Both the position numbers and the translations under genes were made by a program. From Pseudomonadota bacterium (GTDB lineage: Bacteria > Desulfobacterota > Desulfobacteria > Desulfobacterales > RPRI01), in assembly GCA_018817425.1 (NCBI GenBank), contig JAHITX010000069.1:1-60595 (forward strand): a stretch of 60,595 nucleotides of DNA. Reading direction: 5' to 3'. This document shows positions 14,853-40,509 of the stretch, one piece after another. Position 1 is the first letter of the stretch, and each line of letters opens with the position of its first letter. Under the pieces are notes generated by a model. The model was not told the origin of the DNA. It was given only the letters and a program-made list of their open reading frames with translations, and ran no database searches.

Positions 14853-15587
14853 ATGAAAGAAAATAATGGTAAAACAGCTCTTGTCATAGGTGGAAGCAGG
14901 GGAATTGGACGTGCAATTGCTCTTCGTCTTGCGCAATCCGGGTTTGATATCTGGTTAACATATCAAAGCAATCATGAGGCGGCAAATAAGGTAAAATCCG
15001 AGATAGAAACTATAGGTAAAAAATGCGAAAATATTGCATTTGATATTTCCGACCATGATGCCACAAAAGCCGCTCTTGAAAAAAAGTCGGATGAACATCC
15101 CCCACATGTAGTTGTGTTCAATTCGGGAATATCAAGAGATAATCTGATGGTCTGGATGACAAAAGAAGAATGGGATTCCGTACTTTCAGTAAATCTTGAT
15201 GGATTTTATAATGTGATAAAAACAGTGCTTTTTCCAATGCTGAGGGAAAAAAGAGGGCGTATTATAGTTGTTTCATCAACTTCAGGACAAATCGGACAGG
15301 CAGGCCAGGTAAATTACTCGGCTTCAAAAGCGGGTTTAATAGGAGCTGTTAAAGCGCTTGCAAGGGAAATAGGGAAAAGAAATATTTTTGTCAATGCTGT
15401 GGCCCCAGGACTTATTTTAACTGATATGGTTGAATCTTTGGATAAAAGTAAATTGCTTCCACTTATTCCGCTTAACAGATTCGGAAAACCGGAAGATGTT
15501 GCATCTGTGGTTAATTTTTTATGCACCGAAGAAAATATGTATATTCACGGTCAGGTTATAGGTATTAATGGTGGCCTTGCAATATAA
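14853..15587 (+). CDS. 3-oxoacyl-ACP reductase (FabG-like SDR), polyene ketoreductase
   Basis: This enzyme reduces the beta-keto group of an ACP-bound acyl chain with NAD(P)H. The 244-residue protein is a classical short-chain dehydrogenase, with GGSRGIGR at 13-20 (cofactor loop), NSG at 90-92, N114, S141/S142, Y155 and K159 (catalytic set), and a C-terminal GQVIGINGG. It is the first gene of the locus, 20 bp before a CrtI-like oxidoreductase. In APE systems one such ketoreductase (ApeQ type) serves every elongation cycle, and the same role is inferred here. Confidence 0.9.
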   Translation: MKENNGKTALVIGGSRGIGRAIALRLAQSGFDIWLTYQSNHEAANKVKSEIETIGKKCENIAFDISDHDATKAALEKKSDEHPPHVVVFNSGISRDNLMVWMTKEEWDSVLSVNLDGFYNVIKTVLFPMLREKRGRIIVVSSTSGQIGQAGQVNYSASKAGLIGAVKALAREIGKRNIFVNAVAPGLILTDMVESLDKSKLLPLIPLNRFGKPEDVASVVNFLCTEENMYIHGQVIGINGGLAI

Positions 15588-15607
15588 AACTTATGGAAAC
15601 ATATTGA

Positions 15608-17113
15608 ATGAAGAAATATGACGATATTGTTGTAGGAAGCGGAATAAGCGGGATGACCCTTGCGCTTTTGCTTGGGATGAACGGTCATCGCGTACTGCTT
15701 CTTGAAAAAAGCAAAAATATCGGCGGTTCAATGGCCAGATTTTATAAACAGGGAATACCGCTTGATACCGGCTTTCACTTTACCGGTGGGTTTTATAAAA
15801 ACGGAATTCTGGCTGATATGCTTGCTGTTCTTGGAATAAGCGATCAGATTCAGCCTGTCTTTATTACGAAAGAAGATGGAATCAGGGTAATATTTGAAGA
15901 AGATAACTCGGTTTACGATTTTCCCTTTGGTTATGACGAGAAGAAAGCAAAGATAATAGAATACTTTCCGGAGGAAAAAAAGGCTGTTGAACAATATTTC
16001 GATATGGTTGCAGATGTCTGCAAAAAAACAGTGTCGCTTGACTTGCGAAATATTTCACTTTCCCATCACTGGATTGATGAAGATTATATCAGCCTGGAGG
16101 ATGTATTAAATAAGTTAACGGAAAATAACAGGCTCAAAGGACTGCTTTCAAAATACTGTATGTGCTATGGAGTAAAACCTTCGGAAATATCTTTTGCAAA
16201 TCACAGCAGGGTAAGTTTCGGGCTTTATGAATCTGTTGCAAGGGTAAAAGACGGGGGGGATGCTTTTATCAGGGCTTTTAAGAAAAGTTTTGCAGATTAT
16301 GATATAGAAATATGTACCGGAAGTTTTATTGAAGAATGTGCAGATGTAAATAACAATATTGTTGGAAAATTTATCTTAAATACAGGGGAAGAGATTGTTG
16401 CCGACAGATGTATTTTTACAATACATCCGAAAGCAATATTAGATGTTCTTCCAAAAGAGTGTCTTTCTAAAGCATTTATAAATAGGGTGGCTGCCTTTGA
16501 ATCGTCAGCCGGCTTTTTTGCTTTGTTTGGAGTAGTACAAAATTACATTCCCACAGACAGAGACTCTGAGCCTACCATTCTATCGGTTTTTTCAACCACT
16601 GATATGAATCGGATTATAGATCCCTTATATTCCGGTAATCCGGCTCTTGTTATATTGAAGAATCAGGAAACAGTGAACGGGAAAAAGCATATGGTTATTT
16701 CTGCTCTTGAGCTTTCTTTTCCGGAACATGTCAAAGATTGGATAGATTCCGAACCGGGAAAGCGCTCTGAAGTATATCGGAGATACAAAAAAGAGCGCAT
16801 AGAAAACATACAAAAAAGAATATTTATGGCTTACCCCGAATATAAAGATTCTTTTATGATATTGGATGCGGCATCAATACTGACCTTTAAAGATTATCTT
16901 AATTCGCCCGATGGTTCTGCATATGGAATAAAACAGAAAATCGGGCAGTTTAATCTTTTCGGAAAGCTTCCTGTACGAAATGTTTATGCAGCCGGACAAA
17001 GTGCGGTGCTTCCGGGAATTGTAGGCGCTATGCTTTCGTCATTTATAATAGGACGCAGCGTTGTCGGAAAAGATTTATATATTGATTTTATTAAAAAAAG
17101 GCTTGGAAGTTGA
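15608..17113 (+). CDS. CrtI/phytoene-desaturase-like FAD oxidoreductase
   Basis: This 501-residue protein begins with a dinucleotide-binding motif (DIVVGSGISGMTLALLLG, residues 5-22, then LLLEKSKNIGGSM). It ends with the FAD-closing motif of the CrtI/CrtO superfamily (VYAAGQSAVLPGIVGAMLSS, about 464-483). CrtI-like enzymes desaturate, saturate or isomerise polyene chains. Such an enzyme is not part of the basic APE set but does occur in clusters proposed for ladderane lipids. It could set double-bond position or geometry in the ACP-bound chain. The next gene starts inside its stop codon, so both are tightly co-expressed. The substrate is unknown. Confidence 0.85.
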   Translation: MKKYDDIVVGSGISGMTLALLLGMNGHRVLLLEKSKNIGGSMARFYKQGIPLDTGFHFTGGFYKNGILADMLAVLGISDQIQPVFITKEDGIRVIFEEDNSVYDFPFGYDEKKAKIIEYFPEEKKAVEQYFDMVADVCKKTVSLDLRNISLSHHWIDEDYISLEDVLNKLTENNRLKGLLSKYCMCYGVKPSEISFANHSRVSFGLYESVARVKDGGDAFIRAFKKSFADYDIEICTGSFIEECADVNNNIVGKFILNTGEEIVADRCIFTIHPKAILDVLPKECLSKAFINRVAAFESSAGFFALFGVVQNYIPTDRDSEPTILSVFSTTDMNRIIDPLYSGNPALVILKNQETVNGKKHMVISALELSFPEHVKDWIDSEPGKRSEVYRRYKKERIENIQKRIFMAYPEYKDSFMILDAASILTFKDYLNSPDGSAYGIKQKIGQFNLFGKLPVRNVYAAGQSAVLPGIVGAMLSSFIIGRSVVGKDLYIDFIKKRLGS

Positions 17114-18333
17114 AAAGGGTTGTTATTACCGGCATAGGAGCTGTTTCTCCATTAGGCACTGATATACCTGCCATGATCAGCGGCATAGAGGCCGGAAAAA
17201 GCGGCGTTCGTTACATGGATGGTTGGGATCAATATATAGGTTTGAGAAGTCTTGTGGGGGCACCTGCTAAGCTTGAAAATGAAAAGGCTATCCCACGTTC
17301 AAGCAGAAGATCAATGGGAAGAATGAGCATATTTTCGGTTCAGGCTGCCGAACAGGCTCTTTTGGATGCAGGTATAGACCGTAAACTGCTATCATCAGGC
17401 CGTCTGGGATGCATAATTGGGTCTACCATGGGAAGTGCTGAAAGTATTAATGATACTTTTGAAATCATGATTCCCGATAAAGATCTTACAAAACTTTCTT
17501 CAATGAAGTTTTTTCAGTGTATCTCCCATACAGCTGCAATGAATACAGCCCAGCATCTGGGTATTACAGGCTATGTTCTTGCAACATCGGCGGCATGTGC
17601 TTCGGCTCTTCAGGCTATAGGTGCTGCTTACGATCTTATAAGACTTGGAAAGCAGGATGCAGTATTATGCGGTGGAGCAGAAGATCTTCACCCGACCGTT
17701 ACCGGTTCTTTCGATATCCTTTTTGCTACATCAGCCGGATACAATAATGAGCCCCATAAAACGCCCCGTCCTTTTGATGCAAAAAGAGATGGTCTTGTTT
17801 GCGGAGAAGGAAGCGGTATTCTTCTTGTTGAAGAATATGAGCACGCATTAAAAAGAAATGCCAAAATTTATGCTGAAATTATCGGCTATCATACATGCGG
17901 AAGCGGAGTACACATAAGTAAATCCAATAAGGGTTCAATGGTGGCCTGTTTTAAGCAAACACTAAAAGAAGCTAAAATTAAAGCCGGTGAAGTCGATTAT
18001 ATAAACGCCCATGCAACAGCTACTCTAAATGGAGACAAGGAAGAGGCTGAAGCCATAAAAGAAGTATTTGGAGATCAGATTCCCGTAAGCAGCCTTAAGG
18101 GATATATGGGACATACTCTGGGAGCATCCGGCTCAATTGAGTTAATAGCAACACTTATTATGATGGAAAAAGGATGTATATATCCCACATTAAATCTTGA
18201 ATCAGTTAGCCCTGAATGTGATGGTATTTTCCATGTAACTGAAAAATTAACAAGAAAGATTGATGTAATAGTTAAAAATTGTTTTGCTTTCGGAGGAATC
18301 AATGCTTCAATAATATGTAGAAAATTGAAGTAA
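17110..18333 (+). CDS. Beta-ketoacyl-ACP synthase (FabF-like), ketosynthase 1
   Basis: This enzyme condenses an acyl primer with malonyl-ACP. The 407-residue KAS I/II-type protein has a complete catalytic triad: C163 in TSAACASA, H301 in NAHATAT and H335 in YMGHTLGASG. The start is TTG at 17110, overlapping the previous stop as TTGA, and gives the canonical N-terminus KRVVITGIGAVSPLG. An ACP gene follows 24 bp later. It has no chain-length-factor partner next to it, unlike the two other ketosynthases of the locus, so it may act early (priming) or on another chain. Confidence 0.93.
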   Translation: MKRVVITGIGAVSPLGTDIPAMISGIEAGKSGVRYMDGWDQYIGLRSLVGAPAKLENEKAIPRSSRRSMGRMSIFSVQAAEQALLDAGIDRKLLSSGRLGCIIGSTMGSAESINDTFEIMIPDKDLTKLSSMKFFQCISHTAAMNTAQHLGITGYVLATSAACASALQAIGAAYDLIRLGKQDAVLCGGAEDLHPTVTGSFDILFATSAGYNNEPHKTPRPFDAKRDGLVCGEGSGILLVEEYEHALKRNAKIYAEIIGYHTCGSGVHISKSNKGSMVACFKQTLKEAKIKAGEVDYINAHATATLNGDKEEAEAIKEVFGDQIPVSSLKGYMGHTLGASGSIELIATLIMMEKGCIYPTLNLESVSPECDGIFHVTEKLTRKIDVIVKNCFAFGGINASIICRKLK

Positions 18334-18357
18334 TTATAAGATAAAACGGGATATTAA

Positions 18358-18609
18358 ATGACGGAACAAGAGATAATTAGACTGACAAATCAGGTTTTTG
18401 AAGAATCGTTTGAAATAGAAAAAGAACTATTAAAACCAGAAGTGAATATATTTCAGGATCTGGGGTTAGACAGTCTGGATGTGGTGGATCTTGTTGTGGC
18501 TTTACAGGAGAAATTCGGCGTAAAAATACGAAACGACGAGAGGATACAGACCATAAGAACGCTTCAGGATATATATGATTTCATATTTACATTAAAAGCA
18601 GAATATTGA
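18358..18609 (+). CDS. Acyl carrier protein 1
   Basis: This 83-residue ACP carries the growing chain on a phosphopantetheine arm attached to the serine in the DLGLDSLDVVDLV motif (Ser about residue 40). Helices and acidity fit the four-helix ACP fold. It is one of three ACPs in the locus (others at 31600 and 34885). Its TGA stop codon is also the edge of MITE-like copy 2, so the natural C-terminus may have been trimmed. The last residues (FIFTLKAEY) still look complete for an ACP. Confidence 0.93.
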   Translation: MTEQEIIRLTNQVFEESFEIEKELLKPEVNIFQDLGLDSLDVVDLVVALQEKFGVKIRNDERIQTIRTLQDIYDFIFTLKAEY

Positions 18610-18749
18610 GCCAGTTTCAAAACGTCCCATTTTGGCCGATCTCTGCGTTGGGCGAAAATTTTAATCCTCGAAATACTCCATGTATTCCTGCGGTTAAAAT
18701 TTTCACCCGCCTTGACCTTGACCAAACTGAAACGTTTTGAAAGTGGCTC
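18608..18749. mobile_element. MITE-like repeat, copy 2
   Basis: This 142-bp element has terminal inverted repeats GAGCCAGTTTCAAAACGT and, read inward from the right, GAGCCACTTTCAAAACGT. Its core is shared with copy 1 at 9840-10002 (GGCCGATCTCTGCGTTGGGC; CATGTATTCCTGCGGTTAAA). It interrupts the otherwise compact biosynthetic operon between an ACP and an acyltransferase gene. A TTG-started extension of the acyltransferase frame into this element (from 18737) is almost certainly not the true start. Confidence 0.75.
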
Positions 18750-18778: not shown

Positions 18779-19543
18779 ATGAAAGACTTTTTTATACTAT
18801 TATTTTTTAATTTACTGTTTTATTTTTTCTTTATCGTTTTTTCTGTTTTTGGGATTCCACTTTTTTCTCTTATTGTAGCAATTCAGGCTCTGTTTATTTC
18901 CCATCGAAAAGCAATGAAAAAATTTCGCAGAGCTGTTGCCTGGTATGGTATTGGAGTATGCAAGGTTCTTCCATTTCCTTTTGTGCGAATAATTTTTAAG
19001 GATGTTGATGCATCAAACAATCCGGGGCCGTTTATTTTTATCTGTAATCACAGATCAGCCTCAGATCCCTTTCTGATGGCTTATCTTCCATATAAAGAAG
19101 TTATACAGGTAGTAAACATCTGGCCTTTTAAAATCCCGATACTTGGCTTTATGGCAAAAAGTGCCGGTTATTTGAGTGTAAGAGAAATGCCGTTTGAAGA
19201 TTTTGAGAAAAAAACTATTGAGCTTTTAAACGAAGGTGTATCCATTGCTGCTTTTCCTGAAGGGACCCGCTCTAAAGATGGTTCGGTTGGGCAGTTTCAC
19301 AGTTCAATGTTCAGAGTGGCGCTTAAATCAGGATATCCGATTGTGCCAGTATGCATTACAGGAAATGAAAATATTCCGGCAAGAGGAACACTTCTTCTAA
19401 GACCCGGGGCCATAAAAATACATAAGCTTAAACCCATAACTGATGATGAATATAAAAATTACAGCCCTTTTAAATTAAAAAACAGAGTACGTCAGATAAT
19501 GATAGATGAGATTGAAATAATGGAAGGTAAAAAAGATGGCTGA
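18779..19543 (+). CDS. PlsC-like 1-acylglycerol-3-phosphate acyltransferase
   Basis: This 254-residue membrane-bound acyltransferase transfers acyl groups to a glycerophosphate-type acceptor. One or two N-terminal hydrophobic segments (about residues 4-40) anchor it. It has the HX4D motif (NHRSASDP), FPEGTRSKDG as the phosphate-binding motif, and a later GYPIVPVCITGNE. ATG 18779 was chosen because the upstream TTG at 18737 lies inside the inserted repeat. It overlaps the next gene by 8 bp. APE clusters contain a similar acyltransferase. It may put the finished polyene, or a normal fatty acid, on the lipid product. Confidence 0.88.
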   Translation: MKDFFILLFFNLLFYFFFIVFSVFGIPLFSLIVAIQALFISHRKAMKKFRRAVAWYGIGVCKVLPFPFVRIIFKDVDASNNPGPFIFICNHRSASDPFLMAYLPYKEVIQVVNIWPFKIPILGFMAKSAGYLSVREMPFEDFEKKTIELLNEGVSIAAFPEGTRSKDGSVGQFHSSMFRVALKSGYPIVPVCITGNENIPARGTLLLRPGAIKIHKLKPITDDEYKNYSPFKLKNRVRQIMIDEIEIMEGKKDG

Positions 19544-20630
19544 ATCATGCAGCCGGATATTTGACTCGCTTATTTATTTTGATGAGTATACAGGTGAAGA
19601 CAGAGCAAACAGTCTTTATGCCCTTGAAATATATTTGGGAGATCCGGTTGATTTCGGGTTTTCTACAGCCTTTATTAATCCTGCTTCATTGCCTGATGAA
19701 AAACTTTCGGAAGAAGATATTTGCGATGTAATCAATCAGGCAAAATCTCTTGGTTTGAAAGTAATTATTTTTTCGGGTAAAGAAGCTGCAAGCTTTCGAA
19801 AAATGCAAAATATTTTATCTTTTGCAAAAGAGCTTGGTATTGATACCGATATCTTAAACGAAGAATATTTTTGTAATGCGAATTCCAAAAAAAATGACCC
19901 TGCTTTATGCATGCGCCACAGGTATTCTGTTGTTGTGACATCTTACGGTTATGTTTTGCCTTGTCCGGGGCTTAAAATACCTTTGGGAAATATCCGTTAT
20001 CAGAAGCTAAGCGATATAATAAAAGACAGTGAAATATTATGCGATTTAAAAGACTACAAAAATAAAATAAAAGGGCCATGTCGCATATGCGAAAAAGCCA
20101 AAATTTGTTATGGATGCCGGGGCAGATCGTATCTTATTACAGGAGATTATCTTGCAGCAGATTCTTTGTGTGAAAAAAATGAAAAGAAAAAAAATAATAT
20201 TATTTGTCTTCCGATTAAACTTGACGGAATAATACCTCAAATGCCTCCTATGCGAATTATTGACTCCATTGACAAATTGGCTGAACGCAGCGCCGAGTGT
20301 AGCGCATTAATAAAAGAGGGGATGCCTTTTATGGAAAAAGACGGCAGTATAGATAATGTCGCTTACTTTGAAATGATGGCACAATCTATTGCCGCACTTA
20401 ATGGTTTCAGAAATATGGAAGCAACTGATTCTGCTCCGGAAGGTTATCTTCTGGGAGGAAAAAAGCTTATTATAAACTCTAAAGCAAAGGTTGGAGATAG
20501 ACTTTCTATCTATGTTTTTAAGTATGCCAAGTTTGGTGGTTTCGGTATAGTAAAAGGGATTATTAAAAGAGATAACGAAGTACTTGCTTTTGGAGAGATT
20601 AAGATCTGGCATAATACGGATCAGGAATAA
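19536..20630 (+). CDS. SPASM iron-sulfur domain fused to ApeP-like hot-dog dehydratase half
   Basis: This 364-residue protein has two parts. Residues about 1-215 resemble the C-terminal half of a radical SAM/SPASM protein: a degraded barrel (SLGLKVIIFSGKE) followed by cysteines C125, C143, C182, C185, C191, C194 and C212 in a SPASM pattern (PCRICEKAKICYGCRGR). The CX3CX2C that binds the SAM cluster is absent. Residues about 224-360 are an ApeP-like hot-dog domain (PMRIIDSI, YFEMMAQSIAALNG) that keeps the FabZ-type Glu (E279) but has Phe where the catalytic His should be. The fusion is continuous, with no stop or frameshift between the parts. It would supply one half of a dehydratase site, with a regulatory, electron-carrying or structural cluster attached. 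I know of no described equivalent. Confidence 0.8.
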   Translation: MAESCSRIFDSLIYFDEYTGEDRANSLYALEIYLGDPVDFGFSTAFINPASLPDEKLSEEDICDVINQAKSLGLKVIIFSGKEAASFRKMQNILSFAKELGIDTDILNEEYFCNANSKKNDPALCMRHRYSVVVTSYGYVLPCPGLKIPLGNIRYQKLSDIIKDSEILCDLKDYKNKIKGPCRICEKAKICYGCRGRSYLITGDYLAADSLCEKNEKKKNNIICLPIKLDGIIPQMPPMRIIDSIDKLAERSAECSALIKEGMPFMEKDGSIDNVAYFEMMAQSIAALNGFRNMEATDSAPEGYLLGGKKLIINSKAKVGDRLSIYVFKYAKFGGFGIVKGIIKRDNEVLAFGEIKIWHNTDQE

Positions 20631-20642: not shown

Positions 20643-21317
20643 ATGTTTAAAATGATACGAATACTTACTCTTTTAATGCTGGTGATTTTATTTGCAGCAT
20701 CAGGGGTGGCAGAGCAAACAAATTCTTCGGCTGATAACAAAGCCGGTTTAGATGAGGTATTGCAAAGGCTTGAAACAAAGATGGCAAAGATAAAAACCTT
20801 AAAAACCGCTTTTATTCAGGAAAAAGAGCTGGCTGTTTTTAATAGTAAAGTTGTATTAAAAGGAATGATTTATATCGAAAAGCCGTATCGGCTGGCATGG
20901 CGTGTAAATGAGCCTTTGAAATATATTATGATTATGTCCGAAAATACTATCAGCCAGTGGGATGAAGATACAAAAAAGGTTCAAAAGATTTCTCTGTCAA
21001 AAAATCCGGCATTTGAAGCAGTTATCGGTCAGATGCGGGGATGGTTTTCAGGCGCTTACACACAGCTGGTAAAAGATTATGATGTTATCCTTGTTTGCGA
21101 TAAACCCGTATCACTAAAGTTTGTTCCAAAGACTGAAACCTTTGCAGGCAATGTTATTAAAAGCGTAACAGTTGATTTCAGAAAAGACGAACAATACATC
21201 CAGAAAATTTTTATTGAGGAAAAAAGCGGTGATACAACCTCACTCATGTTTGTTGACACAAATGTAAATATTGAAATTGAACCTGCCGCATGGAGGCTTA
21301 TTCCCATTGCCGGATGA
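20643..21317 (+). CDS. LolA-like outer-membrane carrier protein
   Basis: This 224-residue periplasmic protein has a signal peptide (residues about 5-24) and a LolA/LppC-like fold: TLKTAFIQEKELAVFNSKV, then GMIYIEKPYRLAWRV, LSKNPAFEAVIGQMRGWFSG and VDFRKDEQYIQKIFIEE. LolA proteins bind lipid tails in a half-barrel. In APE loci the equivalent (ApeL type) is thought to help carry the lipid product to the outer membrane. It is 12 bp after the SPASM-dehydratase gene and its end overlaps the exporter gene, so both are probably made together. Confidence 0.85.
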   Translation: MFKMIRILTLLMLVILFAASGVAEQTNSSADNKAGLDEVLQRLETKMAKIKTLKTAFIQEKELAVFNSKVVLKGMIYIEKPYRLAWRVNEPLKYIMIMSENTISQWDEDTKKVQKISLSKNPAFEAVIGQMRGWFSGAYTQLVKDYDVILVCDKPVSLKFVPKTETFAGNVIKSVTVDFRKDEQYIQKIFIEEKSGDTTSLMFVDTNVNIEIEPAAWRLIPIAG

Positions 21318-31479: not shown

Positions 31480-31599
31480 TGGCACTTTCGTATATTAATT
31501 CGTATATTAATTAGGGTTTTTAAGTATTGGTGTTTTTGTTGCATATTCAGTTAGAAGATGCATGCAAGTGCTTTGAAAGGTAATGAAGGAGAATGGTTG

Positions 31600-31881
31600 A
31601 TGGAAGAAGTTAATAAAATGAATCTGGATGATATCAGAAAGCTGCTCAAAGAGCTGTTGATTGAAAGCCTTTCGTTAGAAGATATTGAGCCGGATGATAT
31701 TGGTGATGATGAAATCCTTTTTGGAGAAGGGCTTGGTCTCGATTCTTTGGATGCTGTCGAGATAGTAGTACTGCTTCAGAGAAACTTCGGTCTTGAAGTA
31801 AAAGATATGAACCAGGGGAAAGAGATATTTTATTCTATAAATACTCTTGCCAAATATGTATATGAAAACACCAGAACCTGA
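31600..31881 (+). CDS. Acyl carrier protein 2
   Basis: This ACP of about 93 residues has the phosphopantetheine site in GLGLDSLDAVEIVVLLQ. It is unusually acidic ahead of the site (LEDIEPDDIGDDEILFGEG). ATG 31600 was chosen over ATG 31558 because AAGGAG (31586-31591) lies 8 nt ahead of it. It leads directly into ketosynthase 3 and its partner, so it probably works with that pair. Confidence 0.92.
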   Translation: MEEVNKMNLDDIRKLLKELLIESLSLEDIEPDDIGDDEILFGEGLGLDSLDAVEIVVLLQRNFGLEVKDMNQGKEIFYSINTLAKYVYENTRT

Positions 31882-31914: not shown

Positions 31915-33078
31915 ATGAAAGTAGTAATATCCGGGATAGGAACAATTTCAGCTGCAGGTTTTAATTTGGAAGAAAACCTCAATTCTATGAAAAACGGCAA
32001 AAGAAACGCGGGATTGGTTTCTCTTTTTCAAAATGTCTTGGCCTATCCTGTTCTTGAAGTAAAAAACCTTCCTGAAAAAATGGAAATGGAGGGAATACGC
32101 ACTTTCTATCTTGCTCTTACTGCTGCTAAAGAGGCTTTTATTGATGCAAATCTTTCAATGCCGCTTTCAGGATTTAATGTTGGTGTTTGCCTGGGTACCA
32201 CAGTTGCAAGCCAGCTTAATGATATTGATTTTTACAGTACTTTCCGTAAATTTGGTAATGCCGACTTAAAGGCGGTTGAACGCTTTTTACGCGGTAATCT
32301 TTCTGAAGCACTTGCACATTTGATAAAAGCAACCGGACCGTCAGTTACGGTTGCAAACGCATGCTCATCAGGTACTGATGCAATAGGTATAGCTCTTTTA
32401 TGGCTAAGGTCCGGTATTTGTGATATGGTTATCGCCGGAGGAGCAGATGAGCTTAATCGCGTTCCTTATTGCGGATTCGGATCTTTAGGGATATTAAGTA
32501 AGTCTTTGTGTGCTCCTTTTGATAAAGACAGGACAGGCCTTAATTTGGGAGAAGGGGCAGGGATAGTTATTCTTGAAAGAGAAGATGTTTATATAAAAAG
32601 AGGAGGAACCCCGCTTTTATATCTTTCGGGATATGGATCTGCTGCCGATTCATATCATCTTACCGCACCGCGGCCTGATGGTAAAGGACTTGAATCTGCA
32701 ATAAAAAAGGCCTTGTCAGATTCCGGCATATCTGCAAAAGATGTTTGTTTTGTCAATGCACATGGTACAGGCACTATAGATAATGATAAAGTGGAGAGTG
32801 CTGTATTATCGAGAATATTCGGGGAAAATATAAAATATTTTTCAACAAAGGGATATACCGGGCATACGCTTGGTGGTGCAGGAGGTATTGAAGCTGCTTA
32901 TACTGCGGCAGCGCTTAAACAGCAATGGATACCTGCAAGCGCTGGCTTTATATCCAAAGGTGATCAAATACCTATTAGCCCTGTTACTGTTAATACAAAT
33001 ATAAGCGGTTCTTATGCAGTATCGACGTCTCTTGCTTTTGGGGGAAATAATGCTGCGATTGTTGTTGAAAAAGTTTAG
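31915..33078 (+). CDS. Beta-ketoacyl-ACP synthase, ketosynthase 3
   Basis: This 387-residue ketosynthase has the complete triad: C150 in VANACSSG, H283 in NAHGTGTI and H317 in GYTGHTLGGAG. GVCLGTTVASQLNDI and SAADSYHLTAPRPDG are typical APE-type KS strands. It is followed 17 bp later by a KS-like protein with Ser in place of Cys. The two probably form the second ketosynthase/chain-length-factor pair, distinct from 25256-27069. Confidence 0.92.
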   Translation: MKVVISGIGTISAAGFNLEENLNSMKNGKRNAGLVSLFQNVLAYPVLEVKNLPEKMEMEGIRTFYLALTAAKEAFIDANLSMPLSGFNVGVCLGTTVASQLNDIDFYSTFRKFGNADLKAVERFLRGNLSEALAHLIKATGPSVTVANACSSGTDAIGIALLWLRSGICDMVIAGGADELNRVPYCGFGSLGILSKSLCAPFDKDRTGLNLGEGAGIVILEREDVYIKRGGTPLLYLSGYGSAADSYHLTAPRPDGKGLESAIKKALSDSGISAKDVCFVNAHGTGTIDNDKVESAVLSRIFGENIKYFSTKGYTGHTLGGAGGIEAAYTAAALKQQWIPASAGFISKGDQIPISPVTVNTNISGSYAVSTSLAFGGNNAAIVVEKV

Positions 33079-33095: not shown

Positions 33096-34139
33096 ATGTA
33101 TATTTCCGGAATTGGAATAGTTTTTACACGCGGTCGCGGTATCGATTGCTTTGAAAACGCCTTAAAACAAGGTTGGGCAGACCCTTTTTGGACAGATTCG
33201 TTTCCGGCATATCGTGTATCGAAAGATATTTTATCTGACAAAACTGTATCCAAAAAGCTTAGAAGGGCGGATAAATTCAGCAAAATGGCTGTTCTGTCAG
33301 CTGTTGATGCATATAAAGACAGTGGTTTAATATTAAAAAATGATGAAAAGCTTGGAGTAGTACTTGCAACAGCTTTTGGGCCTCATACAACAACATTCAG
33401 CTTTATTGATGATATACTTGATTATGGAGATGCAAATGTATCGCCAACGAAATTTTCAAACTCCGTTCATAATGCTGCGGTTTCATATATTTCAACTGTT
33501 CTTGAAAGCCGGGGCCCGACAGTAACACTTACGGATTTTTCGTATCCGTTTCAAAATGCTTTGCTTCTTGCCGATTCATGGCTTAAAGAAGATAGATGCG
33601 AACATGTTTTATGCGGATGTGTTGATGAATTAAGCGCAGTTATGGAATATGCCTGCAAGATAAAACTGAAAACAGCAGCAGATGGAAAAATAAAGCCATT
33701 CATGTTTTCAGATTCTCCTGTTTCTGTTTTGGGCGAAGGCTCAGTTTTTTTTATGTTATCTAAAGAAAAATGTGAGAATAATTATGGCAATGTTTCTCAA
33801 ATTTCTTTTTCAAAGGCATTAAAGAATAATCCTGATATTACAATTATTGATGCTGACGGCATGGCCGGGGATGAATCAGGCTATGAAGAAATATCAAATA
33901 ATGGTTTGCCGATCTCCGGATATTCACCTGTTTTCGGGAGTATGATAGTAGGAAGTGCCTTTAATTTTGCGGCTGCTTGTCTGATGCTAAGAAATCAGCT
34001 TATCTACAAGTGCCCTGTTTTGGATAATAATACAAATATGAATTTATGCTCTACGATACAAGATGAAAAAATATGCGAAATAAATTGTATCAAAATATGC
34101 CGGTCAAAGAAATATTCGATAATCAATATAATAAAATAA
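33096..34139 (+). CDS. Inactive ketosynthase homologue, second chain-length-factor-like protein
   Basis: This 347-residue ketosynthase-fold protein (YISGIGIVFTRGRGIDCFE; GVVLATAFGPHTTTFSF; SVHNAAVSYIS) aligns without gaps to ketosynthase 3 around its active site. C150 of the partner falls on S149 here (PTVTLTDFSYPFQ). The HGTGT and GHTLG histidine motifs are gone. It is longer than the short factor at 26389 and keeps part of the C-terminal half. It probably acts as a structural partner that limits chain length. The loss of all three residues argues against condensing activity. Confidence 0.8.
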   Translation: MYISGIGIVFTRGRGIDCFENALKQGWADPFWTDSFPAYRVSKDILSDKTVSKKLRRADKFSKMAVLSAVDAYKDSGLILKNDEKLGVVLATAFGPHTTTFSFIDDILDYGDANVSPTKFSNSVHNAAVSYISTVLESRGPTVTLTDFSYPFQNALLLADSWLKEDRCEHVLCGCVDELSAVMEYACKIKLKTAADGKIKPFMFSDSPVSVLGEGSVFFMLSKEKCENNYGNVSQISFSKALKNNPDITIIDADGMAGDESGYEEISNNGLPISGYSPVFGSMIVGSAFNFAAACLMLRNQLIYKCPVLDNNTNMNLCSTIQDEKICEINCIKICRSKKYSIINIIK

Positions 34140-34149: not shown

Positions 34150-34860
34150 ATGAATGTAAAAAGAAAATATATAGCAGGCCTTATTCTTGGGATTATTTTA
34201 ATTTTTACTTACTCCTCATTGTTTGCAGCAGGCTTTACAGGAAAAACTTATTATACAAAAGTAAATATCTGGTATGAAAAACCCAACAGGATCTTATCGA
34301 CAAATTATCACAGGGGTAATATTTTACCTATAGGAACAAAAGCTAAAATCCACAGCATAAAAGACCGCAAAATTCAATTTACCCCTGAAGGAAGCGGGCA
34401 GCTTTTTACAATTATAAACCAAAAAAATACAAGTACTATAAGTACTGATAAACTGTTTAACAGGTATTTTTCTTTAAAACAGATTAACCTCAGTGCCGGT
34501 GATTATAATAAGGCATCTGTAGCCGATATCGAAAATATTAAAAAGGGTATTATTACTATGGGTATGAGCAAGAAGGCGGTTATAATGGCCTATGGATATC
34601 CTCCTACCCATAAAACACCTCAATTATCAAGTAATGCCTGGCGCTATTGGTATGCGCGCATGCATAAAGTTAATGTGTTTTTCAAAAATGATAAAGTGTT
34701 TAAAATAGAGACTATAGGGCCTATTCCACACCCTGGATTTATCAAATCTGATGTTAAAAAAACCGGTGGCGTAAGAGAAGATGAACTAAAAGCAAAAAAG
34801 CAGAAGAAAAATGATAAAGATGCTGATGCTGAGGATTATGAAGATATAGATGTTGAATAA
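34150..34860 (+). CDS. Secreted BamE/SmpA-like domain protein
   Basis: This 236-residue protein has a signal peptide (about residues 7-26, AGLILGIILIFTYSSLFAA) and a beta-rich first domain. The second domain (about 137-200) contains GMSKKAVIMAYGYPPTHKTP, then NAWRYWYARMHKVNVFFKND; this is the BamE/SmpA fold pattern (G-M-x-x-x-x-V-x-x-x-h-G-x-P). The tail is a charged Lys/Asp/Glu stretch. It may be an envelope partner for product display or transport. Its presence inside a biosynthetic operon, 10 bp after the chain-length-factor-like gene, is unusual for APE loci as I know them. Confidence 0.7.
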   Translation: MNVKRKYIAGLILGIILIFTYSSLFAAGFTGKTYYTKVNIWYEKPNRILSTNYHRGNILPIGTKAKIHSIKDRKIQFTPEGSGQLFTIINQKNTSTISTDKLFNRYFSLKQINLSAGDYNKASVADIENIKKGIITMGMSKKAVIMAYGYPPTHKTPQLSSNAWRYWYARMHKVNVFFKNDKVFKIETIGPIPHPGFIKSDVKKTGGVREDELKAKKQKKNDKDADAEDYEDIDVE

Positions 34861-34884: not shown

Positions 34885-35136
34885 ATGGACAAAGAAAAAT
34901 ATAAAGTTATCGAAGAAGCGCTAAAACTTGAGATCGCAGCAATTTTATCGCAGGATATTGGCGCAATTGATCCTGAAATCCCTTTACACGAGATGGGTCT
35001 TGATTCTCTCGGTTTTGTTGAGCTTCTTGTTATTATGGAAAATAAATTCAATATCAAGCTGATGGAATCCGGATTAACCAAAAACGATTTTAAGACTATC
35101 AAGGCTCTTTCTTTGAAAATAAAAGAATTAATTTAA
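34885..35136 (+). CDS. Acyl carrier protein 3
   Basis: This 83-residue ACP has the phosphopantetheine site in EMGLDSLGFVELLVIMENKF. It differs strongly from ACPs 1 and 2 around the site (Gly after Leu), suggesting a different partner. The condensation-fold gene begins 5 bp later, so this ACP most likely donates its acyl group to that enzyme. Confidence 0.93.
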   Translation: MDKEKYKVIEEALKLEIAAILSQDIGAIDPEIPLHEMGLDSLGFVELLVIMENKFNIKLMESGLTKNDFKTIKALSLKIKELI

Positions 35137-35141: not shown

Positions 35142-36461
35142 ATGTTATCTTTGCCATATTCCAAAACCAAGCGCTATTTAACCGGAATCGACTGGATTAT
35201 TCATGTATTAAATTACATGACATTGAAAGAAACCGGCGCAGGCTTCATGTCTCAGATAGTTATAGAGGTAGTTGGCAAAGTAAATGCTGATGAGCTTTTT
35301 AAAAGTCTAAATGCTTTTATAAAAAAATATCCTGTATTATATGGTTATGCTTCAAGGGATATTAACCTTGCTCCTTACTGGAAAATCCCGGCTTTAAAAA
35401 AGACAGAAGTACTGTTTGATTCCATTACGGCCGGATATGATGATGGTTTTGAAAATATCATAGAGTTTCTTGAAAAAAAGATAAATACTGCGTTTCAAGA
35501 CAAAAGGCATCATTTAGCATTTTCTTTGATCAATTCTGAAAACAAAAGCTATATTGCGATGAGATTTGATCATCTGATTTTTGATGCAGCAAATGCCGAA
35601 GCATTTATCCATTTGTTTCAAAAACAATGGATAGATGCGAAATATCCGGATAGCAATATTATCCCGGAGCCGCCCCATCTTAATTTGTGGAAACAAAAGT
35701 TTTTGGCAGGTCAGCGTGTGAATCGGGCATTTCTTAAAATAGCAGACAAAATTCCTCCGCGTGTGTTTCCTCTGCCTGCCTCAAAAAGCGGCTTTAAATT
35801 TAAAATATTATCCTTTGATAAACAAACTGCTGATGAAATTGCTGAAAAAGCATTTAATGAAGCCGGATATCTTATGCTGATGCCTTATGCCCTGGCGGTG
35901 TCGGTTTATTGTTTTAATAAGATATTTATTAATCGCTCAATTACATCCGGTGACTATGTAATTCCTGTTTCAGTTAATACAAAAAAACAGGCAAAAGAAC
36001 AAAAAAGTGAATTTTTTAATAATGTTTCTTTTTTTATTTTCAAGATTAAAGCCGATCTTGCCGAAAATTTCCCCGGTTTGCTTAACTCAATTAAAGAGCA
36101 AATGTATAATCAGGTTAAAGAAGATCTTCCCGGTGATTTATGCAAGGCAAGTTTGTTGATGAGAATAGCGCCGCTTTTTCTTCTTGGCAGGCTTATGAAA
36201 ATATATCTGAAAGGAGAGGTTGCGTCTTTTAGCTTTTCTTATCTTGGAGAAGCTACATATACATCTAATGATTTTATGGCGAACAAAGTGCTTAACCTTT
36301 TTCATATGCCAAGAGTTCCGATTCCACCCGGTATCGGCATATTTTTTCAACGGTCAAATGAAAGGCTGAATATAATACTTTCTTACATAGACGGCATATT
36401 GAAAAACGATGAAGCAGAAGAGATAATGAATTTAATAAGACCCATGCTTGGTGTAAAATAA
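35142..36461 (+). CDS. Stand-alone condensation-fold acyltransferase
   Basis: This 439-residue protein resembles the NRPS condensation, PapA and wax-ester synthase superfamily. The active motif is present as H144-x3-D148 (RFDHLIFDAANAEA), the second-half HxxxD-type site. The N-terminal half has KSLNAFIKKYPVLYG and the C-terminal half SFSYLGEA, a DFGW-like latch region in the related families. Such enzymes pass an acyl group from an ACP to an alcohol or amine. It follows ACP 3 by 5 bp. It is a good candidate for the step that joins the polyene chain to its final acceptor. It is not a standard APE component. Confidence 0.78.
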   Translation: MLSLPYSKTKRYLTGIDWIIHVLNYMTLKETGAGFMSQIVIEVVGKVNADELFKSLNAFIKKYPVLYGYASRDINLAPYWKIPALKKTEVLFDSITAGYDDGFENIIEFLEKKINTAFQDKRHHLAFSLINSENKSYIAMRFDHLIFDAANAEAFIHLFQKQWIDAKYPDSNIIPEPPHLNLWKQKFLAGQRVNRAFLKIADKIPPRVFPLPASKSGFKFKILSFDKQTADEIAEKAFNEAGYLMLMPYALAVSVYCFNKIFINRSITSGDYVIPVSVNTKKQAKEQKSEFFNNVSFFIFKIKADLAENFPGLLNSIKEQMYNQVKEDLPGDLCKASLLMRIAPLFLLGRLMKIYLKGEVASFSFSYLGEATYTSNDFMANKVLNLFHMPRVPIPPGIGIFFQRSNERLNIILSYIDGILKNDEAEEIMNLIRPMLGVK

Positions 36462-36464
36462 GCA

Positions 36465-37652
36465 ATGGCAATTTCCTGTGATATTCTTGTTGTTGGGGCA
36501 GGTGTGGCCGGCGTTTCTGCTGCTATCAAGGCTGCCCGTGAAGGGGCAAATACACTTCTTATCGAAAAAGATACCTTCCCCGGTGGAATTCCTGTTAATG
36601 TTATGCACAAATATATTTGCGGACTGTATTCTTCGGATTTACATGCTCCGGCGGCTACATTAAACGGAGGAATTGCAGAAGAAATATGTATTGAACTTGA
36701 AAAGCTTACCCCTGGAACAAAAGCAATCAGGATTGGAAAAGTTTATGTTTTTCCTTTTGTTACAAAAAATCTTGTAAAAGTTTTTAAGCATTTAACTGAA
36801 AAACAAACAGGCCTGAAAGTATTTTATGAAACGAAAATTAATTCGGCAATAACTGATCAAAGCAACATAAAGTGTGTAATAGCAAAACAACTTAACGAAG
36901 AGATAAAGATTTTTCCGCAAGTTGTTATTGACTGTAGTGGTGATGGAGAAGTAATCCGTTTAAGTGGTGCAAATTATGAAATATCAACTTCTGATGAGCG
37001 CCAGCTTGCGGGATTTTGCTTTAAGATTAAAGGCATAAAAAATCAATCCGAAGAAATTTCAATAAAAGTACCTTATTATATATTTCGTGCAGTAACTGAA
37101 AATGAGTTGCCGCCTTATTTAAAGTACACAAAATATTATTCCGGAAAAAATGATGATGAAGGTTTTTGTCTTATAAATATTCCTCTTAAAAGTGGTTTTG
37201 AAGAAACACAGGATATCCAAAATATTGCTGTTAAAGTTCATAATATTATTTCCGATTCAATTGTTTCATTTAAAGACTCTTATATAGCCGAAATGTCTTC
37301 TGCAATTGTTGAGCGTGAAGGATTGCGGATGAACGGGCAATATATGCTTACGAAAGAAGATGTGCTTTCTGCAAGAAAATTTCCTGACGGTATATTGAAA
37401 AATGCCTGGCCTATAGAATTATGGGATCAGGATAAAGGGCCGACTTATCAGTATATTAAAACCGGCGATTATTATGAAATTCCTTTAAGGTGCTTAAAAT
37501 CCATAAATATAAAAAATCTGTATGGAGCAGGGCGCTGTATTTCCGTATCACATGAGGCTCTTGGATCAACAAGGGTTATGGGAACATGCATATCAATTGG
37601 TGAACAAGCCGGGCTTGCGGCATTTCATGACTTGTCAGGGAAAAATTCATGA
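36465..37652 (+). CDS. FAD-dependent oxidoreductase 2
   Basis: This 395-residue flavoprotein (FAD_oxidored type) has an N-terminal GAGVAGVSAAIKAAREG nucleotide-binding motif, then LLIEKDTFPGGIPVN, and C-terminal NLYGAGRCISVSHEALGSTRVMGTC (in pieces) as the FAD-binding end. The middle contains VVIDCSGDGEV. It is unrelated in detail to the CrtI-like protein at 15608, so the locus has two separate flavin-dependent steps. It sits 3 bp after the condensation-fold gene and overlaps the third radical SAM gene by 4 bp. The reaction is unknown; dehydrogenation of the chain is plausible. Confidence 0.82.
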   Translation: MAISCDILVVGAGVAGVSAAIKAAREGANTLLIEKDTFPGGIPVNVMHKYICGLYSSDLHAPAATLNGGIAEEICIELEKLTPGTKAIRIGKVYVFPFVTKNLVKVFKHLTEKQTGLKVFYETKINSAITDQSNIKCVIAKQLNEEIKIFPQVVIDCSGDGEVIRLSGANYEISTSDERQLAGFCFKIKGIKNQSEEISIKVPYYIFRAVTENELPPYLKYTKYYSGKNDDEGFCLINIPLKSGFEETQDIQNIAVKVHNIISDSIVSFKDSYIAEMSSAIVEREGLRMNGQYMLTKEDVLSARKFPDGILKNAWPIELWDQDKGPTYQYIKTGDYYEIPLRCLKSINIKNLYGAGRCISVSHEALGSTRVMGTCISIGEQAGLAAFHDLSGKNS

Positions 37653-39082
37653 AAATACTGCTTGTAAAACCTTATACAGAGCTTTTGGTTGCAAAGCGTC
37701 TTCAGGAAGGTTTTTTACATCTTGAACCTCTTGAGCTTGAAATAGTTGCAGGCGGGGTTCCGGCAGAAGATGAAGTATTTATTCTGGATCTAAGCATTGA
37801 GCGCAATCCGCTTGAAGTTTTTTGGAGCAAGCTGGTTTCTATCTCACCGGATATGGTTGGTATTACAGGATACAGTACAAATTTAGATGTTGTAAAAAGC
37901 CTTGTAAAAACAGTTAGAAGCCATGATCCATACACTATAACTTTTGTAGGAGGAGTTCATGCTACACTTCTTCCCGATGATTATGCTGTAAAAGAGATAG
38001 ATATTATAGTAAGAGGAGAAGGTGGAACGGTTCTAAAAGAAATGCTTGCCCGTTTTAAAAAAGGTGAAACTTTGCATTATGAAAATTATGCTTTATCTCC
38101 TAAAGATCCTGAATTTAAGATAAAAGCCAAACTTTCGCCTCCGGTTTATCCATCTGTTGAACATATACCCCGTCCCAGAAGAGATCTTGTTCAAAGATCA
38201 AAGTACTTTTGTGTATGGACATCAAGCAAATCGAAAAAACTTGATACAATGTTTCCAAGAGTTGCGAGTATCAGAACATCTGTTGGCTGTGCTTTTGCCT
38301 GCTCTTTCTGTGTTATTCCCTTTCTTATGCATGGAAAATACTTACAGCGAAGTCCGGAAGATGTTGCAGATGAGATAGCAGGCATTGCTGAAGAGCATAT
38401 TTATTTTGTTGATGATGAAATGTTTTTAAATCCTGAAAGGGTTACTAAAATTGCCGAGCTTCTTATAGAGCGTGGAATTAAAAAGAAATATATAAGCTGG
38501 GCAAGAAGTGATACTATAGTTAAATATCCTGATGTTTTTGAGATTTGGAAAAAAGCCGGCCTGGAATTAGTATATGTTGGGCTTGAATCTATGGATAAAA
38601 AACGTTTGGACGAGTATTCAAAACGAACAGATGTTGATACAAACAGGAAGGCAATCAAACTTTTAAGACAATTGGGAATAACGCTTCATGCGGCATTTAT
38701 AGTTCATCCTGATTTTACTTCTGATGATTTTAAACGGCTTGAAAAAGAAGTTAAAAAACTATGCCCGGCTGAAGTTACTTTTACTGTTCTATCACCTTCT
38801 CCCGGCACTAAATCCTGGTATGACAATAAAAATAAGTTTATTTGTGACCCTTTCCGTTTCTACGATTGCATGCATTCCGTTCTTCCAACACGACTTCCAT
38901 TGAAACGCTTTTACCAACACTTCGGGAGATTAAACAGCCTTGCATTACAGGCAAATCCAATCAGAGTTAATAAAATAAAAATTCCAAAAAAGGATCTATA
39001 CAGAGCCATCACAGGGGGCACAAAGTATATTTTCTCCTTATATAACATTTATAAAGATTATTTGACGGATAAAAGATGGTAA
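37649..39082 (+). CDS. B12-binding-type radical SAM enzyme 3
   Basis: This 477-residue enzyme has a B12-binding-type N-terminal domain (DMVGITGYSTNLDVVKSLV; TFVGGVHATLLPDDYAVKE; IIVRGEGGT) and a radical SAM core with C214-x3-C218-x2-C221 (SVGCAFACSFCVIP). IYFVDDEMFLNPER, ISWARSDTI and YVGLESMDKKRLDEYSKRT are barrel strands typical of lipid-modifying B12-radical SAM proteins such as the hopanoid family. It is flanked by overlaps of 4 and 7 bp, so it belongs to the operon. The reaction is unknown. Confidence 0.88.
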   Translation: MKILLVKPYTELLVAKRLQEGFLHLEPLELEIVAGGVPAEDEVFILDLSIERNPLEVFWSKLVSISPDMVGITGYSTNLDVVKSLVKTVRSHDPYTITFVGGVHATLLPDDYAVKEIDIIVRGEGGTVLKEMLARFKKGETLHYENYALSPKDPEFKIKAKLSPPVYPSVEHIPRPRRDLVQRSKYFCVWTSSKSKKLDTMFPRVASIRTSVGCAFACSFCVIPFLMHGKYLQRSPEDVADEIAGIAEEHIYFVDDEMFLNPERVTKIAELLIERGIKKKYISWARSDTIVKYPDVFEIWKKAGLELVYVGLESMDKKRLDEYSKRTDVDTNRKAIKLLRQLGITLHAAFIVHPDFTSDDFKRLEKEVKKLCPAEVTFTVLSPSPGTKSWYDNKNKFICDPFRFYDCMHSVLPTRLPLKRFYQHFGRLNSLALQANPIRVNKIKIPKKDLYRAITGGTKYIFSLYNIYKDYLTDKRW

Positions 39083-40509
39083 ATATCTTTGAAACAATAA
39101 AAAAAGAAACATCCGGACACCAAAGCAAAATTGCCGTGATAGAAGGTGATCGTAATATATCTTATATGGATCTTATTGATAGTGCGGACAAGCTGGCTTT
39201 AAACTTAAAAGATTACGGTATAAAACCTTTGCATAGAGTTGCAATGCTTTGCAATGACTGCATTGATTATATTATTATAAGTCTTGCAATACTTTCTGTA
39301 AGAGCGGTTGTTGTTCCGATATCACCTTCTCTTTCATGGGATGAAGCAGATGCTGTTTTAAAAAAGATCGATGTTAATCATCTGATTTTTGACAAATCTG
39401 CATATTCCACAAAAGATGCCAGTTTTTTATATTCCGGATATAATAATACCCGGCAGATTTTTATACACAGCAGAAATGCTAAAGAGCATGTTGATAAAGA
39501 TTACTATACTGTAAATCCTGCCTTTATTAGATTTTCTTCCGGTACAACAGGTGAAAGCAAAGGAGTTGTGCTTTCCCACGAAGCTATAATTGAAAGAACG
39601 GATGCGGCAGACAAAGCTCTTTGCATGAATTATAAAGATGTTGTTATATGGGTTCTTTCCATGAGCTACCACTTTGTAGTAACAATTCTTCTTTTTTTAA
39701 GACGAGCTTCAACCATTGTTTTAAGCGGAAGTTCTTTTCCTGAATCCTTTATTGAAAGCATAAAAAATACTAAACCAACTTTTATTTATGCATCCCCTTT
39801 CCATTATCATCTGCTTTCAAATTCTGATGATTTGGCAGCTGATCAGTTATCAGACATTCGCATTGCCGTATCGACTGCTATGAAATTACCGCAGGAAACA
39901 GCGTCGGAATTTTATAACAAGTTTGGATTTGAACTTTGTGAAGCTTACGGTATTATTGAAGTCGGGCTTCCCTTTGTTAATTTTGAAGGTCTATCAGAAA
40001 AAAGAGGTTCTGCCGGAAAGGTTTTGCCGGATTATGAAATAAAAATCGAAAATCCGGACGAACATGGTGTGGGTGAGCTTTTTATAAAAGGCAAAGGAAT
40101 GTTTGATGCCTATTTTTTTCCGTGGAAAAACAAAAAAAGTGTTTTATTAAACGGGTGGTTTAAAACGGGAGATCTTGGAAGTATTGATAATGATGGTTTT
40201 CTGACTATATCGGGAAGAGATAAAAACGTTATAAATTTTACCGGCATGAAAATATTTCCCGAAGAGGTGGAATCGGTTTTAAACCGCCATCCTGCTGTCA
40301 GGGAATCTCTTGTCTATGGGGTTCCAAATCCACGATTCGGTGAGCTTCCCTTTGCTAAGATTATACTTAAAGATGATATGAATTCTGATTTTGATACAAA
40401 TGAGATACGCAGATTCTGTTATAATCATCTTCCTTCATATAAGGTCCCCAAAAATATCATTCCTGTGCAAACCCTTGAAAAGACTGCAAGCGGAAAGTTG
40501 AAAAGATGA
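39076..40509 (+). CDS. AMP-dependent acyl ligase
   Basis: This 477-residue adenylate-forming enzyme activates a carboxylic acid as acyl-AMP and transfers it to CoA or ACP. Visible motifs are FSSGTTGESKGVVLSH (phosphate loop), EAYGIIEVG, KTGDLGSIDNDGFL, SGRDKNVINFTGMKIFPEEVE (in pieces), and the C-terminal lysine in EKTASGKLKR. In APE loci a ligase loads the aromatic starter. Here no ammonia-lyase accompanies it, so the starter could be a fatty acid or another acid. It is the last plus-strand gene of the locus; no clear terminator follows. Confidence 0.9.
   Translation: MVNIFETIKKETSGHQSKIAVIEGDRNISYMDLIDSADKLALNLKDYGIKPLHRVAMLCNDCIDYIIISLAILSVRAVVVPISPSLSWDEADAVLKKIDVNHLIFDKSAYSTKDASFLYSGYNNTRQIFIHSRNAKEHVDKDYYTVNPAFIRFSSGTTGESKGVVLSHEAIIERTDAADKALCMNYKDVVIWVLSMSYHFVVTILLFLRRASTIVLSGSSFPESFIESIKNTKPTFIYASPFHYHLLSNSDDLAADQLSDIRIAVSTAMKLPQETASEFYNKFGFELCEAYGIIEVGLPFVNFEGLSEKRGSAGKVLPDYEIKIENPDEHGVGELFIKGKGMFDAYFFPWKNKKSVLLNGWFKTGDLGSIDNDGFLTISGRDKNVINFTGMKIFPEEVESVLNRHPAVRESLVYGVPNPRFGELPFAKIILKDDMNSDFDTNEIRRFCYNHLPSYKVPKNIIPVQTLEKTASGKLKR

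Follow-up and report, generated by a model that had tools for sequence, protein, structure and literature searches.

A 26-gene Desulfobacterales locus for a putative radical-SAM-modified polyene lipid, related to the anammox ladderane-candidate cluster

Contig JAHITX010000069.1 of a Pseudomonadota bacterium (assembly GCA_018817425.1; Desulfobacterales, RPRI01), 60,595 nucleotides long and referred to here as the window, carries at positions 14853-40509 a locus of 26 plus-strand open reading frames (ORFs; g01 to g26, Table 1) that follow each other almost without gaps. The question it raises is what is made by an aryl polyene (APE)-type gene set extended with three B12-binding radical SAM (S-adenosylmethionine) proteins, and how this is related to ladderane biosynthesis, itself an open question. 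On balance, we favour the reading that this sulphate-reducer-type bacterium uses the locus to make a polyene lipid that is modified by radical SAM enzymes and exported to the outer membrane, and not a ladderane. A first-pass annotation had considered a cyclised chain and an undescribed pathway. Nothing in this analysis supports cyclisation, and the locus is not wholly undescribed: such clusters are reported by Rattray et al. 2009 (PMC2649909) and listed as antiSMASH ladderane clusters (PMC9902471), and one of the enzymes has an NCBI model, TIGR04072. Their kind is known but unsolved.

Gene parts were identified with Pfam and NCBIfam, complemented with fold and profile searches. The E. coli APE set, as listed in the cited part of PMC8253772, comprises a ketosynthase/chain-length factor (KS/CLF) pair, a second KS, two dehydratases, a ketoreductase, a thioesterase, acyltransferases, a ligase, two acyl carrier proteins (ACPs), and LolA-like, resistance-nodulation-division (RND) and DUF3261 proteins, and the window holds a counterpart for each of these genes, that of DUF3261 being a weak match. 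Shared with the APE clusters of E. coli, Xenorhabdus and Acinetobacter are the KS/half-size CLF pair, the ApeI:ApeP dehydratase, ketoreductase, thioesterase and acyltransferases, together with ligase, ACPs, and LolA-like and RND genes, and, as a weak match in the window, the LolB-like gene. ApeC is described as half the size of a KS (PMC8358021, in the part cited), and a KS with a half-size partner is found here in g12 and the 226-residue g13. As a single sequence g13 matched no KS in the Protein Data Bank (PDB); only its profile retrieved KS structures. The dehydratase pair is represented by g10 and the C-terminus of g06. The predicted g06 model averages a pLDDT of 72.9, with values mostly above 80 in its C-terminal domain, and its top fold match is ApeP of the ApeI:ApeP heterocomplex (6qsr_B, E 5.7e-12); the best PDB sequence match of g10, a weak one, is the partner chain 6qsr_A. 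The three KS (g03, g12 and g19) carry Cys/His/His, which the two CLF-like KS-fold proteins (g13 and g20) lack, and there are three ACPs (g04, g18 and g22). Export genes of APE type include LolA and MMPL, matched by Pfam. Family, motif and fold evidence thus bears out the aryl-polyene-type core recognised in the first-pass annotation, as well as its named parts, apart from DUF3261 for g09, which is a weak match under the cut-off.

Genes for radical SAM and CrtI-like proteins are missing from the published APE gene table (PMC8253772), while the window has both, and it adds a second KS/CLF pair and the module g21-g26. The three B12-binding radical SAM proteins (g14, g15 and g25) have the CX3CX2C motif in each, and the CrtI-like enzyme, second flavin (FAD) enzyme, second KS/CLF-like pair and condensation-fold protein, all named previously, are likewise supported. 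Aromatic ammonia-lyase (PF00221), noted before as missing for an aryl starter, is absent from the whole genome; it was present in two of 11 genomes (G059 and G062), and chorismate lyase (PF04345) in none of 12. In contrast to APE producers, the genome of the window therefore lacks the chorismate-lyase source of 4-hydroxybenzoate. The locus resembles flexirubin clusters in that a ligase carried by its relatives is nearest to FlxY (446 bits, cut-off 520). The window differs from them in lacking both the ammonia-lyase and this ligase, which had no match at E 1e-40 in any of ten genomes of the genus (G000-G009, the first being that of the window; several are incomplete). Searching open-licence literature, we found no paper tying these loci to aryl-polyene chemistry, including the combination of aryl polyene and cobalamin radical SAM.

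A true aryl polyene would need an aryl starter made elsewhere and activated by g26, giving an ordinary APE lipid with methyl groups. The APE-type core and export genes, and the FlxY-like ligase of relatives, agree with this, and starter acids could still derive from amino-acid fermentation or the environment. Set against the missing lyases and the missing ligase, such a product appears rather unlikely.

In the modified-polyene reading that we prefer, type II synthesis without an enoyl reductase would give a polyene acyl chain. An acid would be activated by g26 (in relatives also by the FlxY-type ligase), carried on g04, g18 and g22, and extended by g03 and the pairs g12/g13 and g19/g20, with double bonds left by the ketoreductase g01 and the g10/g06 dehydratase. 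The B12 enzymes g14 and g15 would change the chain, most likely by C-methylation, and g02 most likely by isomerisation or a redox change. Following release by g11, esterification to a glycerol- or sugar-based lipid could be accomplished by the attachment genes g05, g16 and g17, and export to the outer membrane by g08, g07 and g09. A second acyl or head group might be added via g23 and tailored by g24 and the HpnR-like g25.

Several points weigh against this reading. There is no known product for any locus of this kind. The match of g09 is weak, and g10, g03, g19, g25 and the relatives' ligase lie under NCBIfam or Pfam family cut-offs; in addition, ApeC itself is not among the 51 PDB matches of the g13 profile. 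Methylation is guessed from what most B12 radical SAM enzymes do; other members, BchE, HpnJ and OxsB, make or rearrange rings (PMC13142503, in the part cited). Finally, Desulfotalea psychrophila, which has a syntenic cluster, contains polyunsaturated hydrocarbons and has no polyene lipid described in the cited part of PMC2649909.

The first-pass annotation had pointed to a likeness to ladderane-type clusters. As judged from sequence comparison, this likeness is real homology, beyond resemblance. In the window, g15 passes the TIGR04072 model ('rSAM_ladder'). To locate the corresponding genes in anaerobic ammonium-oxidizing (anammox) bacteria, 294 Planctomycetota-type genomes were searched with the g14 profile, and a selection of them with the hydrazine-synthase domain PF18582. 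At E 0.001 the profile matched 186 of the 294 genomes, by score mostly other B12 radical SAM proteins, and only four genomes exceeded 450 bits. From the strong matches 27 genomes were hand-picked for the PF18582 test, and 20 contained the domain, the frame in G087 and G260 being ~1300 residues long and possibly something else. Three genomes (G326, G236 and G156) each have one stretch with homologs of the ligase, radical SAM/SPASM protein, g15, g18, g08 and g02, and of g12 twice. The order in the hydrazine-synthase-bearing G156 is FlxY/PaaK-type ligase, radical SAM/SPASM, TIGR04072, FabG, ACP, HpnN-like MMPL and CrtI-like, the order that Javidpour et al. (PMC4790861, cited part) tabulate for kuste3344, 3343, 3342, 3341, 3340, 3337 and 3336. 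Its ligase is 36% identical and its radical SAM/SPASM protein 44% over 344 of 493 residues, and its TIGR04072 protein scores 440 bits, above the cut-off. In G326 and G236 the set is succeeded by genes homologous to g16 and g05.

Differences between the window and this anammox locus (kuste3335-3352 type) are considerable. Identities are only 22-44%, and the ligase and the intact radical SAM core of g06 are missing in the window, while it has ApeO/ApeC-like and ApeI/ApeP-like pairs, a strict g14, and g21-g26, unmatched in the anammox stretches. A TIGR04072 gene next to radical SAM/SPASM and FlxY/PaaK-type ligase genes is thus not found in the window; many relatives have this arrangement.

In the 13045-19553 segment of the G156 stretch (L139), LpxL-like, LolA, VTT, radical SAM/SPASM and B12 radical SAM genes lie ~4-11 kb upstream of the first KS of the anammox candidate locus, and an ATP-grasp and a HepT-like gene stand between the two sets. 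Similar LpxL/LolA/g14-like matches precede the locus in G326 and G236. If the upstream genes in L139 belong to the pathway, the anammox locus would also have an outer-membrane export set. A g06 fragment match in this upstream region was considered as an ApeP-like domain and rejected, being according to Pfam a separate radical SAM/SPASM protein.

Clusters of this type were reported by Rattray et al. 2009 in K. stuttgartiensis, D. psychrophila, Geobacter and Pelobacter, with syntenic genes for SAM, phytoene-dehydrogenase-like and membrane proteins and phenylacetyl-CoA ligase (PMC2649909, cited part). For the Desulfotalea, Geobacter and Pelobacter clusters, synteny with Kuenenia is taken from that description. 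Geobacter- and Desulfuromusa-titled loci keep the g06-g20 order of the window; they differ from it in falling on the other branch of the g14 tree (see below) and in having no g23 within reach. In the cited part of PMC9902471, Desulfobacterota, Omnitrophota and others are recorded as carrying antiSMASH ladderane clusters, whose role is given as unknown.

Rattray et al. read the shared genes as an anaerobic path that makes polyunsaturated fatty acids, or else C31 polyene hydrocarbons, for the inner membrane, and C31:8 and C31:9 hydrocarbons are indeed reported from D. psychrophila, without ladderanes (PMC2649909, cited part). Hentriacontanonaene in Geobacter bemidjiensis and Shewanella is, however, tied to pfa-type and olefin genes in the cited part of PMC3098273, where Desulfotalea is not named, and the LolA, MMPL, LpxL, PlsC and GT2 genes indicate an exported lipid. 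We consider this route unlikely.

The exported polyene lipid that we favour leaves the question of its starter, on which g06 and the ligase may bear. In relatives, g06 is ~460-500 residues long and joins its radical SAM core to a SPASM domain and the ApeP-like dehydratase. The 364-residue version in the window retains the SPASM cysteines and the ApeP-like C-terminus, and has lost CX3CX2C together with part of the radical SAM barrel, ~125 alignment columns in all. The ApeP-like half had been correctly recognised before, while the decayed radical SAM/SPASM part had been missed. The same decay occurs in G005, G006, G007, G009 and L039, and therefore it is no sequencing error; the motif is also absent in G043 and L076. 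The FlxY-type ligase is present in five of 59 relatives. Where a sequence has both this ligase and a full radical SAM/SPASM gene, the two lie within 43 bp of each other in 21 of 22 cases; among the eight sequences with a broken core, the ligase is next to g06 in none. Strict coupling of the two was rejected, since there are exceptions both ways: four loci (L048, L073, L091 and L100) have a full radical SAM/SPASM match with no ligase match in the locus, and seven have the ligase without a full radical SAM/SPASM match. It is suggestive only that the ligase and the g06 core might share a starter step, and their losses look like two events. The genus of the window probably uses a starter different from that of its relatives, because it has lost the aryl-type starter ligase as well as the catalytic core of the radical SAM domain in g06.

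These losses also bear on ring formation. One could imagine an ancient radical-SAM polyene pathway of which this locus is the widespread form outside anammox bacteria; g14 and g15 would then knit rings to give a carbocyclic outer-membrane lipid, and the anammox ladderane route would have arisen from this pathway. We hold this to be decidedly unlikely. A further reading, ring closure on the polyene by B12 radical SAM enzymes to give a ladderane or another ring lipid, draws on TIGR04072 scores above the cut-off in both g15 and the anammox enzyme, on the radical SAM/SPASM, CrtI, FlxY-type ligase and MMPL genes common to the family, and on the ring-forming ability of cobalamin radical SAM enzymes (PMC13142503). 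Yet ladderanes are reported only from anammox bacteria in the cited part of PMC2649909, and not from D. psychrophila with its syntenic cluster; E. coli expressing the anammox genes formed no new fatty acids, with several proteins insoluble or undetected (Javidpour 2016, PMC4790861, cited part); and the ligase and g06 radical SAM core of the shared set are missing in the genus of the window. A ring lipid is accordingly very unlikely.

Returning to the modified polyene lipid, we examined how widely the gene set is kept. G005, G006 and G007 share the complete colinear set of 26 genes. Of these, 25 are kept in G009, where the contig ends, and 25 in G049, which lacks g25; G043 keeps 24, without g16 and g21, and G010 has only a rearranged part. 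A scan with the g14 alignment found at least 500 relatives, of which the best 80 were kept, and the spread is a lower bound biased to close relatives. The most conserved gene of the locus is g14. Among these best 80 of at least 500 loci, homologs were found of g15 (72), g13 (68), g12 (62), g11 (61), g16 (59) and g19 (51), in counts affected by loci often cut by contig ends, with g25 matches that are sometimes weak matches to other radical SAM genes. Gene order is kept in loci titled Omnitrophota, Nitrospirae, Lentisphaerae, Hydrogenedentota, Planctomycetota and Deltaproteobacteria, so that the search for syntenic loci proposed earlier succeeded in genus relatives and in several titled phyla. 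At least two of four expected homologs flank g14 on both sides in 37 of the 42 loci with enough flank, the exceptions being L068, L084, L088, L094 and L095. Together with colinearity in relatives, this supports a single operon, and the idea that the halves before and after 27.1 kb are unrelated pathways is rejected. The TIGR04072 family is common, as it scores above the cut-off in 25 of 118 genomes of a phylum sample.

In the midpoint-rooted FastTree tree of g14, whose branches are given without support values, the first branch holds mostly Desulfuromonas/Geobacter-type and other deltaproteobacterial loci, and the second holds the window, Omnitrophota, Nitrospirae and Lentisphaerae. The mixed phyla inside the second branch suggest horizontal spread. 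Two possible fusions were seen among the relatives: matches to g12 and g13 share one 581-residue frame in G043, suggesting a KS-CLF fusion, and matches to g16 and g17 share one 723-residue frame in L097, suggesting a glycosyltransferase-acyltransferase fusion.

In the extension module g21-g26, the exported protein g21 and the ACP g22 are followed by the condensation-fold protein g23 and the flavoenzyme g24. The module ends with g25, a B12 radical SAM protein that is closest to HpnR and fails the model of this hopanoid C-3 methylase, and with the ligase g26. The predicted g23 model (pLDDT 85.1) retrieves many condensation domains with Foldseek (E 2.8e-21), and both the fold and the HxxxD motif of the condensation superfamily are present, with F142/H144 invariant and D148 in at least 90% of 16 aligned sequences. 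Its Pfam condensation score is under the cut-off, and a sequence search of the PDB gave nothing at E 0.01. We read g23 as an acyltransferase that would add a second acyl group. Every one of the ten genus genomes, that of the window among them, has g23, and a search of 59 genomes found it in 13. Among 83 sequences (the window, six joined stretches and 76 loci, leaving out L035-L038, which are contigs of G006, G005, G009 and G007), g23 is present in 24, all on the second branch of the drawn tree, and absent in 27 with more than 9.5 kb downstream; the remaining 32 could not be assigned either way. This uneven presence would suit two fused pathways, a polyene lipid from g01-g20 and a separate small acyl product from g21-g26, which is nevertheless highly improbable given that genes from g20 to g26 run in one direction with 3-24 bp gaps or overlaps, and that the module keeps its position across several titled phyla.

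If it is true that the ligase, radical SAM/SPASM, TIGR04072 and CrtI genes of the anammox locus serve a polyene-lipid pathway common to many bacteria outside the anammox group, they are poor candidates for ring closure alone, and the search for ring-closing steps should shift to anammox-only genes. The main value of the locus is that it opens anammox candidate genes to study in culturable bacteria. Carriers with culture-collection strain names, namely Victivallis vadensis DSM 14823, Desulfuromusa kysingii DSM 7343, Geothermobacter hydrogeniphilus HR-1 and Halodesulfovibrio spirochaetisodalis JC271, make the product question testable. The lineage of the window is a natural experiment, having lost the starter ligase and the radical SAM core of g06 and gained or kept g21-g26.

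Table 1. Genes of the 26-gene locus, with positions in the window and the evidence for each assignment.
Gene	Assignment	Position	Strand	Evidence
g01	3-ketoacyl-ACP reductase (FabG/ApeQ-like)	14853..15587	+	Pfam adh_short
g02	CrtI/CrtD-like FAD enzyme	15608..17113	+	Pfam; NCBIfam CrtD 70.8 bits, far under cut-off
g03	KS, Cys/His/His	17110..18333	+	Pfam; motifs; PRK09116 436 bits, cut-off 470 not reached
g04	ACP	18358..18609	+	Pfam; DSL motif
g05	PlsC-type acyltransferase	18779..19543 (start inferred)	+	Pfam
g06	Decayed radical SAM/SPASM + ApeP-like dehydratase fusion	19536..20630	+	SPASM Pfam; alignment; fold match
g07	LolA-like carrier	20643..21317	+	Pfam
g08	MMPL/HpnN-like RND transporter	21271..23727	+	Pfam; NCBIfam under cut-off
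g09	DUF3261/LolB-like, weak	23721..24389	+	Pfam E 0.015, under cut-off
g10	ApeI-like dehydratase half, GHFP motif	24386..24757	+	Pfam E 3.4e-5, under cut-off; 6qsr_A E 0.0023
g11	4HBT thioesterase	24759..25259	+	Pfam
g12	KS, ApeO-like position	25256..26380	+	Pfam; PDB matches incl. 6qsp_A; motifs
g13	Half-size KS-fold partner (ApeC-like CLF)	26389..27069	+	Profile vs PDB, best E 4.6e-9
g14	B12-binding radical SAM	27172..28443	+	Pfam; CRFNCFPC motif; at least 500 relatives
g15	B12-binding radical SAM, TIGR04072 (rSAM_ladder_B12)	28443..29816	+	625.9 bits vs cut-off 360
g16	GT2 glycosyltransferase	29803..30549	+	Pfam; start codons
g17	LpxL-type acyltransferase	30556..31479	+	Pfam
g18	ACP	31558..31881	+	Pfam
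g19	KS (ANACSS, NAHGT, GHTLGG)	31915..33078	+	Pfam; motifs; best PDB 9s5h_B
g20	CLF-like partner of g19	33096..34139	+	Profile vs PDB; without KS active-site motifs
g21	Exported protein, weak BamE-like match (extension module)	34150..34860	+	Pfam E 0.029
g22	ACP (extension module)	34885..35136	+	Pfam
g23	Stand-alone condensation-fold acyltransferase, putative (extension module)	35142..36461	+	Predicted model; Foldseek; conserved residues
g24	FAD_oxidored flavoenzyme (extension module)	36465..37652	+	Pfam E 5.6e-72
g25	B12-binding radical SAM, nearest HpnR (extension module)	37649..39082	+	Pfam; HpnR 239 bits vs cut-off 650
g26	Acyl-CoA/ACP ligase, AMP-binding (extension module)	39076..40509	+	Pfam; NCBIfam

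The 25 junctions consist of 10 overlaps and 15 gaps, the latter of at most 33 bp save three of 127, 102 and 78 bp, in agreement with the near-gapless plus-strand locus described at first. For g16 the start was corrected from the listed ORF start at 29554 to near 29803, the nearest in-frame ATG ahead of the GT2 domain, so that g16 overlaps g15 by 14 bp; the junction counts are based on 29797. The start of g05 is probably the ATG at 18779, the listed TTG at 18737 being less likely because it falls inside a repeat element. This 148-bp element with 17-bp inverted ends (18605-18752, between g04 and g05) has a diverged copy at 9840-10002. It gave 79 match rows in both orientations in its own genome (40 of 302 candidates scored) and resembles miniature inverted-repeat transposable elements.

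Genes for an MlaE-type permease and an ATP-binding cassette (ABC) ATPase, of lipid-transport type, lie just upstream of the cluster on the minus strand (10014-13574). These Mla-type genes and a Crp-type regulator were excluded as cluster members, having no matches in the relatives' stretches. On the downstream side, the cysteine-rich g27 (40522-41364, minus), which is without a Pfam or NCBIfam match, adjoins the locus in G009 and G006 and is unmatched in the G005 and G007 stretches, and was excluded as well. Elsewhere in the genome of the window, seven radical SAM matches occur in ~8.4 kb of contig C14 (23860-32268) and four in ~7.6 kb of contig C88 (3352-10998).

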